64,000 nucleotides of DNA from Synechococcus sp. JA-3-3Ab (GTDB lineage Bacteria > Cyanobacteriota > Cyanobacteriia > Thermostichales > Thermostichaceae), in contig NC_007775.1 in the NCBI RefSeq assembly GCF_000013205.1, positions 2,315,001-2,379,000 on the forward strand, read 5' to 3'. Positions 11,263 through 15,453 of this stretch are shown here, one piece after another. Position 1 is the first letter of the stretch; every line of letters begins with the position of its first letter. The notes under the pieces are model-generated. The model was not told the DNA's origin. It searched no databases and saw nothing but the letters and a program-made list of their open reading frames with translations. Both the position numbers and the translations under genes were made by a program.

Positions 11263-11955
11263 ATGGCCAGTGCAGATGAGCTGAAACAGGCGGCAGCCCA
11301 AGCGGCGGCCCAAAAGGTGCAGTCGGGCATGGTGGTGGGGCTGGGCACGGGATCCACAGCCGCCTTTGCTGTGGGCGCCCTAGCCCAGCGCATGCAAAAG
11401 GAGGGGCTGCAGTTCATTGGGGTGCCCACTTCCGAGCGCACGGCAGAACAGGCCCGCTCTCTAGGGATCCCGCTGGCCACGCTGGAGGAGCAGCCGCGCC
11501 TAGATCTTGCCATCGATGGAGCCGACGAAATCGAAGTGGGATCCCTCAACCTCATCAAGGGGGCAGGGGGAGCTCTGCTGCGGGAGAAACTGGTGGAGGC
11601 CAGCGCTGCTGAGCTCATCATCATCGCCGATGCCTCCAAAAAGGTGGCCCACCTGGGCACCCGCTTCCCGGTGCCGGTGGAGGTGGTGCGCTTTGGCTGG
11701 AAGACGACCCTAGCGCGGGTGGAGGCCCTGGGCTGTCAGGCGGTGCTGCGGCGCACTGCCGAGGGGGATCCCTACCTCACCGACGAGCAGCACTACATCC
11801 TCGACTGCCAGTTTGGCCCCATCGCCAATCCGGCCAAGCTGGCCGAGCAGCTCAAGGGAACGGTGGGGGTGGTGGAGCACGGCCTGTTTATCGGCATGGC
11901 CACGGAGGCCATTATCGCTGGGCCTGAAGGGATCGAGACGCTGCGGCAGAGCTGA
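11263..11955 (+). CDS. rpiA: Ribose-5-phosphate isomerase A
   Basis: 230 residues, the usual length. [11 protein letters not shown] near 26-36, [11 protein letters not shown] with the catalytic acids near 81-91, and [13 protein letters not shown] are all RpiA signatures. It interconverts ribose-5-phosphate and ribulose-5-phosphate in the Calvin cycle and pentose-phosphate pathway. AAAGG precedes the ATG. Its 3' end overlaps the convergent pdxA gene by 44 bp, so the two terminate into each other. Confidence 0.96.
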
Positions 11956-12961
11956 GGGCCAGCTCGGCTGCTAGCAGGATGGCCTGCTTGAGGCTCTCGG
12001 CGCGGGCTACCCCCTGCCCGGCTAGGTCAAAGGCAGTGCCGTGGTCGGGGGAGGTGCGAATAAAGGGCAGCCCCAGGGTTAGGTTGACGGCCCGGTCAAA
12101 CGCCAGCAGCTTCACGGGGATCAGGCCTTGGTCGTGGTAGAGAGCCAGGTAGGCATCGGCCACAGCAGGAGCTCCTTGACCATACCAGGCCTGGGCGGGC
12201 GCTAGCCACATGGTATCGGGGGGAAGCGGCCCCCAGATTTTGGCGTGGGGATAGGTTCTTAGCAGCTCCGCCAGCCACGTTTTCTCTTCCTGCCCAAGCT
12301 GCCCCTGCTCGCCAGCATGGGGGTTAAGGCCAGCCACAGCAATCACCGGATTGACAATCCCAAAGAGCTTACGCAGGGATCCAACCAGCAAGTCCAACTT
12401 CGCGCGCACCAGCTCCGGGGTAAGGGTGAGGGGCACCTGGCTCAGGGGGATGTGGGTGGTGGCCAGCAAAACCCGGATCTGCCAGCCGCTGTGGGGAGAA
12501 CGGGCCACAAACAGCATGCCGTAGCGCTCGCTCCCGCTGAGCTGGGCCAGAACTTCTGTTTGGCCAGGGAAGGGGTAGCCCGCCTGGTGCCAGAGGTATT
12601 TGGCAATGGGAGCGGTCACGATCCCCTGGAACTGGCCCCGCAGCGCTTCTTCAATAGCTGTTTTCAGGTAGGCAAAGCTGGCCGCCCCGCTTGCGACATC
12701 CCCCCGGCCCACGCGCGACGGCTCTAGGTAGAAGCCGCTGCCGCCCTCCAGCACCGGGATCCCTGCCGGGTCGGCCAGGTCGGTTGCCCCTCGCTGGCGC
12801 AGAAGGCAGTAGGTAGCTTCCAAAACCTGCCGCTCGCCCACCACCGTTATCTGGGCGCAGGCCTGCACCTGGGGATCCGCCAGCGCCTTGAGCACAATCT
12901 CTGGCCCAATCCCCGCCGGATCTCCCAATGTCAGGGCTAGCTTCGGCAGCAGCAAGCTCAT
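11912..12961 (-). CDS. pdxA: 4-hydroxythreonine-4-phosphate dehydrogenase PdxA
   Basis: 349 residues. [20 protein letters not shown] at the N-terminus, [37 protein letters not shown] (metal-binding His) and [18 protein letters not shown] are PdxA hallmarks. It oxidises 4-phosphohydroxy-L-threonine in pyridoxal-5'-phosphate synthesis. The upstream context is strange: the start codon is only 10 bp from the last, degenerate repeat of a CRISPR array transcribed in the same direction. There is no room for an ordinary promoter outside the array, and no clear Shine-Dalgarno sequence precedes the ATG. It overlaps rpiA at its 3' end. Confidence 0.95.
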
Positions 12962-12971
12962 TTTCTATTTC

Positions 12972-14201
12972 TAGTCCAATTTCTAGGGATCCCCCCGAAG
13001 GGGGAACAATGGAGTTACGTGGTTCCAGAATAAGCGGCTGGAGAAGTTTCCAATTTCTAGGGATCCCCCGAAGGGGGAACAAGCAAACAACTAACTTTCG
13101 CAAGAACTTGGCGTTCATAGTAATGTTTCCAATTTCTAGGGATCCCCCCGAAGGGGGAACTCCCAAGGGTACTACAGTTACTATTTCGCAGTTGCGCAAG
13201 GGTTTCCAATTTCTAGGGATCCCCCCGAAGGGGGAACTTTGCTGGGTCTATCGAAACAGATTCACTGGATAAACGTTTCCAATTTCTAGGGATCCCCCCG
13301 AAGGGGGAACTGTATCTGGGCATACGGTGGGTGGTACATTTCGGAGCGTTTCCAATTTCTAGGGATCCCCCCGAAGGGGGAACCTCATAGTGCGGGATGT
13401 AGGCGGTAAGCGCTTCTACTGTTTCCAATTTCTAGGGATCCCCCCGAAGGGGGAACCCTTTTTTAACAACTTCCTTAACTAGAGCAGATGTTTACAGTTT
13501 CCAATTTCTAGGGATCCCCCCGAAGGGGGAACAGCATTACTGAGCTGCGCAAAGCGCAAAAGCGTGAGCGGTTTCCAATTTCTAGGGATCCCCCCGAAGG
13601 GGGAACTCTAAACAAAGGAGTCCGTATGAACACATTCAAGATTGTTTCCAATTTCTAGGGATCCCCCCGAAGGGGGAACTGATGGTATACCCAGTCCTGA
13701 CTGGGCTACATCCTGCCGTTTCCAATTTCTAGGGATCCCCCCGAAGGGGGAACTTCTGGCGGGATCACCCACACACCCCTGTACTACAGTTTCCAATTTC
13801 TAGGGATCCCCCCGAAGGGGGAACCCGATTCGTTCGCAAGCGACTGGTTACTAACAGTCTTTACGTTTCCAATTTCTAGGGATCCCCCCGAAGGGGGAAC
13901 ATTAAGTATAAGACAGAGCAGCATCCTATTTTTCGCACTAATAGTTTCCAATTTCTAGGGATCCCCCCGAAGGGGGAACTCGACACGGCCGCCACGAATA
14001 AACCAAGGACTCAGGTTTCCAATTTCTAGGGATCCCCCCGAAGGGGGAACTTACCGTCCAGTACATATACATCCCGCACTTCAAGAAGAGGTTTCCAATT
14101 TCTAGGGATCCCCCCGAAGGGGGAACATCCTGCTGATATGGTAGAAGGCTTGGTAGCTCCTCAATGTTTCCAATTTCTAGGGATCCCCCCGAAGGGGGAA
14201 C
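12972..14201 (-). CRISPR. CRISPR array, 17 repeats and 16 spacers, no cas genes in window
   Basis: The 36-bp repeat starts GTTTCCAATTTCTAGGGATC and ends CGAAGGGGGAAC as read on the plus strand. It contains a CCCCC-CGAA-GGGGG hairpin and the octamer GGGATCCC. Repeat starts: 12972, 13046, 13125, 13202, 13275, 13348, 13421, 13497, 13571, 13644, 13718, 13789, 13865, 13944, 14015, 14091, 14166. Spacers are 35-44 bp. The left two repeats are degenerate: the first has an altered 5' end (plus strand) and the second lacks one C and is 35 bp. Decay at the left end, and a minus-strand repeat ending ATTGGAAAC (the usual 8-nt crRNA handle form), both place the leader on the right and transcription on the minus strand. 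The subtype cannot be assigned without cas genes; the handle suits type I or III. Confidence 0.97.
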
Positions 14202-14321
14202 GGCAAAAAAGGGCCCCGAAGAGGGGGGGTGAGAGGCCTGAAAGCCTTGTGGCGCAAGGCATCGAGCGGGTCAACGAAAGAATCGGCCTTTGCGGGTTTT
14301 GGCGAGGCGCTCGCAGAGCTG

Positions 14322-14350
14322 CTGATACCGTTTTGGTGTGCTTTTGGCAA
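14322..14350 (-). promoter_or_regulatory. Candidate CRISPR leader promoter
   Basis: On the minus strand TTGCCA (14345-14350), a 17-bp spacer and TATCAG (14322-14327) would start RNA near 14314, about 110 nt before the first repeat. This suits a CRISPR leader. The rest of 14202-14475 shows no ORF with support; it also must hold the pdhB promoter on the plus strand. Confidence 0.4.
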
Positions 14351-14475
14351 CATGACCGGGGTTGGGATCCCTAGGGGCGAGGTGCCCTGCCCAGCGGGTT
14401 GTCTGCCAGCGGATCCCTGCCGGCAAAATGGTTTAATGGAAACTTAGCAACATTTTTGAGCAGCGGTTGCCCTCT

Positions 14476-15453
14476 ATGGCCGAGACCTTCCTTTACAATG
14501 CCTTGCGTGCCGCCCTCGACGAAGAGATGGCCAGGGATCCCAATGTGTTTGTTCTGGGAGAGGATGTGGGCCACTACGGCGGCTCCTACAAAGTCACCAA
14601 AGACCTATATCGCAAATACGGGGAGATGCGCCTCCTGGATACCCCCATTTGCGAAAACAGCTTCACCGGCTTGGCCATCGGGGCAGCCATGACCGGCTTG
14701 CGGCCTGTGGTGGAAGGGATGAACATGGGCTTTTTGCTCCTGGCCTTTAACCAAATTGCCAACAATGCCGGCATGCTGCGCTACACGTCCGGCGGCAACT
14801 TCAAGATCCCGCTGGTGATCCGCGGGCCAGGCGGGGTGGGACGCCAATTGGGAGCCGAGCACTCGCAGCGGCTGGAGGCTTACTTTCAGGCAGTGCCGGG
14901 TCTGAAGATCGTCGCCTGTTCCACCCCTTACAACGCCAAGGGTCTGCTCAAGTCGGCCATCCGCGACGACAACCCCGTTCTCTTTTTCGAGCATGTGCTC
15001 CTCTACAACCTCAAAGAAGACCTGCCGGAGGAGGAGTACCTCTTGCCCCTGGACAAGGCGGAAGTTGTCCGCACGGGATCTGACGTTACCATCCTCACCT
15101 ACTCGCGCATGCGCCACCACGTGCTTAAGGCCGTGGACACCCTGCTGGAGCAGGAGATCGATCCGGAAGTGATCGACTTGATCTCCCTCAAGCCCCTCGA
15201 TATGGAGACGATTGCTGCTTCGGTGCGCAAAACCCACCGGGTGGTCATCGTGGAAGAAGACATGAAAACGGGCGGCATTGGGGCAGAGCTGACGGCCCGC
15301 ATCATGGAAGAACTCTTCGACGAGCTGGACGCGCCCGTAGTGCGCCTGGCCTCCCAAGACATTCCCACCCCCTACAACGGCACGCTAGAAGCGGCCACCA
15401 TTGTGCAGCCGGCAGATATTGTGGCAGCGGTGGAGCGGCTCCTCTACGGATGA
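14476..15453 (+). CDS. pdhB: Pyruvate dehydrogenase E1 component, beta subunit
   Basis: 325 residues from ATG 14476 ([21 protein letters not shown]). The extension to an upstream TTG adds three residues and has no support. ThDP-binding and transketolase-like features: [63 protein letters not shown], and the C-terminal [19 protein letters not shown]. With E1-alpha (not in window) it decarboxylates pyruvate and feeds acetyl-CoA to fatty-acid synthesis. It lies divergently from the CRISPR array and shares the leader region. Confidence 0.95.

Follow-up and report, generated by a model that had tools for sequence, protein, structure and literature searches.

The 64-kb window, that is, the whole stretch of DNA that was analysed, comes from Synechococcus sp. 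JA-3-3Ab (OS-A) and holds a CRISPR array between two divergent metabolic genes, pdxA and pdhB. The features at this locus, in window coordinates, are as follows.

11263..11955, plus strand: rpiA, convergent with pdxA, whose 3' end it overlaps by 44 bases
11912..12961, minus strand: pdxA, 4-hydroxythreonine-4-phosphate dehydrogenase, 349 aa (NCBIfam NF002744 and TIGR00557 above cut-off; Pfam PdxA)
12962..12973, minus strand: 12-base bridge TAGAAATAGAAA from repeat 17 to the ATG, by its sequence a putative degraded partial copy of the repeat 3' end
12974..13007, minus strand: terminal repeat 17, ending GGAC, not GGAAAC (two As missing); matched by Rfam
13008..13045, minus strand: spacer 16, which holds the nearest promoter-like site before pdxA
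13046..13080, minus strand: repeat 16, one G missing
12974..14201, minus strand: CRISPR array of 17 repeats and 16 spacers, CRISPR-IIE of Synechococcus OS-A (sequence, Rfam and published coordinates)
14201..14202, minus strand: junction lacking the final 68 bases of the leader, which hold the predicted array promoter (leader alignment; comparison with array IIB; segment absent from the window)
14202..14354, minus strand: distal leader remnant, 153 nt, 96% identical to the IIB leader (leader alignment)
14476..15453, plus strand: pdhB, pyruvate dehydrogenase E1 beta subunit, lying next to pdxA in divergent orientation here and in both sister genomes

The array is regular, with near-identical repeats of a 36-nt unit and unique spacers of 35–44 nt in a register rebuilt from the sequence, as is expected of a CRISPR array. 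Read on the minus strand, the repeat unit is GTTCCCCCTTCGGGGGGATCCCTAGAAATTGGAAAC. The Rfam family CRISPR-DR58 (RF01371), which describes the same repeat and covers the repeat alone, matches all 17 repeats on the minus strand above the gathering score. Heidelberg et al. (2009; PMC2612747) have placed CRISPR-IIE of this strain at genome positions 2,327,972–2,329,201. The arrays of JA-3-3Ab coincide with those tabulated in that study, and the array described here is their CRISPR-IIE, a cas-less satellite array identical in repeat and coordinates to the entry among the CRISPR-II arrays of Synechococcus OS-A and OS-B'. The main text of PMC2612747 contains none of the words leader, promoter and pdxA, and neither the loss of a promoter segment nor the replaced 5' region of pdxA is described there. 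A conserved leader at the right and degenerate repeats at the left support the orientation proposed in the first-pass annotation, in which the array reads on the minus strand. The repeat also contains the highly iterated palindrome of this genome: GGGATCCC occurs 103 times in the whole window against 2.5 expected, with 17 of the 103 copies inside the CRISPR repeats, and a passage of PMC6604393 likewise reports HIP1 in the repeat of Synechocystis CRISPR1. Neither the junction at pdxA nor the core of the repeat or of one spacer was matched in a scan of viral contigs.

The ATG of pdxA (12961–12959) lies 12 bases past terminal repeat 17 on the same strand. The adjacency and shared direction noted earlier thus hold, with a gap of 12 bases, since the terminal repeat ends GGAC, against 10 in the register of the first-pass annotation. 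The bridge bases resemble a degraded second copy of the repeat end (CTAGAAATAGAAAATG versus CTAGAAATTGGAAAC), and brief tandem leftovers of the repeat end likewise trail other arrays of the same repeat family. In a survey of arrays from three genomes, pdxA is the only gene with a well-supported start codon to have a same-strand array no more than 15 bases away; one array of a sister genome continues into a predicted frame whose TTG start is unverified. Both terminal repeats are degenerate, as had been noted, but the proposed cause, selection for pdxA expression, is unsupported: similar decay at the trailer end is seen in other arrays of the family that have no gene there. The lack of a Shine-Dalgarno sequence before the ATG was also read correctly, but it is uninformative, the motif being present in just 13 of 44 long ATG frames within the window; as most of these frames are without one, its absence was dropped as a special sign at pdxA. 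RNA folding around the pdxA start gave no more structure than shuffled sequences and does not suggest a hidden riboswitch-like element. In any mRNA begun upstream, repeat 17 is part of the 5' untranslated region of pdxA.

The product of pdxA is a full-length member of its family, with a curated family score and a conserved start. The gene is single copy, 81% identical to its counterparts in the sister genomes, and has a dN/dS of about 0.15 relative to its relatives, indicating purifying selection. The genome contains pdxJ, and a search of it for PdxS found none, while control genomes gave the expected matches. pdxA therefore lies on the only de novo vitamin B6 route detected; given this and its conservation it must be expressed, and from its place in the pathway it is apparently essential.

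Both sister genomes have pdhB next to pdxA in divergent orientation, with a gap of about 200 bases and no array between the two genes. The pdhB side of this gap is still recognisable in JA-3-3Ab. On the pdxA side homology to both sister genomes begins exactly at the ATG, and so, as judged from this alignment, the native 5' region of pdxA is wholly replaced. This bears out the earlier suggestion that pdxA was left without an independent intergenic promoter. The comparison covers one genome of this species, JA-3-3Ab, and its two sister genomes. A pdxA protein search of species-representative contigs returned no close members of the genus. Because more distant members of the genus carry a different gene upstream of pdxA, gain of the array here and its loss in the sister lineage are not strictly separable. 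As the IIE and IIB leaders are nearly identical, a recent duplication or conversion in the JA-3-3Ab lineage is the more likely.

The CRISPR-IIE leader was aligned with the leaders of four further arrays and of a decayed remnant in the same genome, and with those of several arrays of the two sister genomes. Every other informative leader of the repeat family in the three genomes, and the decayed remnant as well, ends in TTGCAT-17-TTTAAT followed by 9 bases and repeat 1; array IIC has a small insertion within this segment. CRISPR-IIE alone is without the 68-base leader end, the cut falling exactly at the leader-repeat border, so that the 153-base remnant is joined directly to repeat 1. The last ~105 bases of the remnant match the IIB leader nearly base for base. 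No copy of the 68-base segment is present anywhere in the 64-kb window. An active array is expected to have a complete leader with a promoter beside repeat 1, and the leader of CRISPR-IIE is incomplete there. Only one transcription start has been mapped in Synechocystis CRISPR3, a single base ahead of repeat 1 (PMC3575380), and the intact leaders here are predicted to have the same geometry; CRISPR-IIE, in contrast, is without the start-site segment. This parallel, together with the position and motif of TTTAAT, makes the missing segment most likely the array promoter. With it lost, CRISPR-IIE probably yields little or no crRNA. The view that pdxA depends on the ordinary CRISPR transcript is therefore weakened, since IIE is the one array without the leader segment that bears the predicted promoter. 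Elsewhere in the genome (505146–505226) a lone degenerate repeat has the promoter segment intact. Its surroundings resemble sequence that flanks complete arrays of the sister genomes, which would fit an array worn down to a single repeat.

A strict sigma-70 scan of 12900–14560 found no site, with 0.9 expected by chance, and no minus-strand terminator was found in the same interval. Because the strict scan also misses the TTTAAT-type leader promoter, a looser promoter score was adopted. By this score the last 160 nt before pdxA hold no promoter above shuffled sequence. The nearest promoter-like site, TTGGAA (13053–13048) -15- TATTCT (13032–13027), lies 65 nt before the ATG and reaches 6.8 bits against a shuffled average of 7.5, i.e., no better than chance; the looser score is also low for the native sequence upstream of pdxA in the sister genomes and is therefore insensitive, which makes such values weak evidence either way. 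The best-scoring site in the region is in the distal leader remnant, TTGCCA (14350–14345) -17- TATCAG (14327–14322), yet it is weak and imperfect. A promoter hidden in the last spacers, as the first-pass annotation had offered among other options, thus keeps its place among the explanations, although its candidate sites do no better than shuffled sequence.

The cas genes that belong to this repeat family lie elsewhere. Array IIA, which has the same repeat, adjoins a type III-B (CRISPR-II) locus encoding Cas1, Cas10b, Cmr3, Cmr4, Cmr5, Cmr6 and Csx1. No cas6 was found in this III-B locus, and the single Cas6 match of the genome adjoins the type I arrays and their system. Processing of the III-B repeats by Cas6 is accordingly unlikely, as is the earlier idea that a Cas6-type cleavage makes the 5' end of pdxA. 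The genome does encode an RNase E/G homologue, and RNase E would be a likelier processing enzyme than Cas6 for these repeats. RNase E has been reported to mature the crRNA of the type III array CRISPR3 of Synechocystis PCC 6803 with a cut downstream of the stem-loop in the repeat (PMC10989914), and the final repeat is cut there as well (PMC3575380). The CRISPR3 repeat tail ends in AUUGGAAAC, as here, and the tail of the present repeat matches the last 9 bases of the 13-nt CRISPR3 tag. Both the CRISPR3 locus and the OS-A III-B locus are without cas6. The OS-A locus has cmr5 (a strong Cmr5 match), whereas CRISPR3 is without it. The OS-A locus thus shares the missing cas6, the AUUGGAAAC tail and the presence of RNase E with the RNase E-matured III-B variant, and is not filed as the same variant because it carries cmr5.

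Several further features of the CRISPR loci in this genome were observed. The III-B cas1 (genome 2560123–2560965, minus strand) is interrupted by an in-frame TAA, and spacer uptake by this system may for that reason be impaired in JA-3-3Ab; the neighbouring cas2 looks intact. Array IIA (genome about 2558.1–2559.3 kb) is in two parts, of 3 and 8 repeats, with about 1.15 kb of DNA between them that holds a 299-codon frame. The type I cas1 (genome 893028–894876) is in two halves with a 397-codon frame between them, as already reported (PMC2612747).

Since an array that has probably lost its promoter occupies the control region of pdxA, the gene must be switched on from within the CRISPR DNA or through it. 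The reading that we favour, with moderate confidence, is that the array replaced the pdhB-pdxA control region and lost its leader promoter, and that pdxA is run from a weak promoter in the last spacers or repeats and not by normal CRISPR transcription. According to this reading, a cas-less III-B array, CRISPR-IIE, with a leader near-identical to that of another array of the genome, has replaced the pdhB-pdxA region up to the start codon of pdxA and has lost the leader end with the predicted array promoter. The array would have become silent or nearly so and would not drive pdxA by normal CRISPR transcription. Transcription of the gene would start at a weak promoter co-opted from the final spacers and repeats; the 5' untranslated region of the mRNA would be formed by terminal repeat 17, with a UUCG hairpin and an A-rich stretch, and translation would proceed without a Shine-Dalgarno sequence. 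For the source of pdxA transcripts we rank a promoter in the last spacers, at close to even probability, above read-through, which is clearly less probable, and processing of repeat 17, which is improbable.

Read-through would mean that the array is transcribed from a promoter located within the distal leader remnant or at some point upstream of it, and that pdxA is the last gene of a long RNA. The distal leader is conserved in all arrays and holds the TTGCCA-17-TATCAG site, and the lack of a detected minus-strand terminator between 12900 and 14560 is consistent with such an RNA. The -10 element TATCAG, in contrast, is without the final T, the one mapped start of Synechocystis CRISPR3 (PMC3575380) lies beside repeat 1, and seventeen stable repeat hairpins stand between the distal site and pdxA; we regard this as a secondary, rather doubtful option. 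Processing would likewise have the array transcribed, with RNase E, not Cas6, cutting repeat 17 to make the 5' end of pdxA mRNA and so tying B6 synthesis to crRNA maturation. The precedent of CRISPR3 maturation and final-repeat cleavage, the shared 9-base tail, the RNase E/G homologue and the III-B locus without cas6 all speak for it. The predicted array promoter is gone, however, the end of repeat 17 is altered, and cmr5 places the OS-A locus in a different subtype variant from CRISPR3, which together leave this route with a small probability. An assembly or strain artefact could also account for the abutment or for the absence of the leader segment, as one genome represents the species and near-identical leaders occur elsewhere in it. 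Against this, the genome is closed in a single contig of 2,932,766 bases, the table of PMC2612747 gives the same array coordinates, and a simple collapse of two identical leaders cannot yield the junction because both leaders would keep the segment; an artefact is therefore very improbable.

A search of the open literature for promoters within spacers, loss of leaders or transcription running on into a downstream gene yielded nothing pertinent. It is conceivable, although we consider it doubtful, that an essential gene is here expressed only via CRISPR DNA, through a promoter in viral spacers or crRNA-type cleavage of the terminal repeat, so that B6 is tied to an immune array and promoter loss was part of the capture. 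The locus offers a before-and-after case, in which the sister genomes have an array-free pdhB-pdxA gap and JA-3-3Ab has an array in place of the control region, with the array's own promoter apparently lost. It makes both the silencing of a satellite array and the recruitment of spacer DNA as a host promoter testable.
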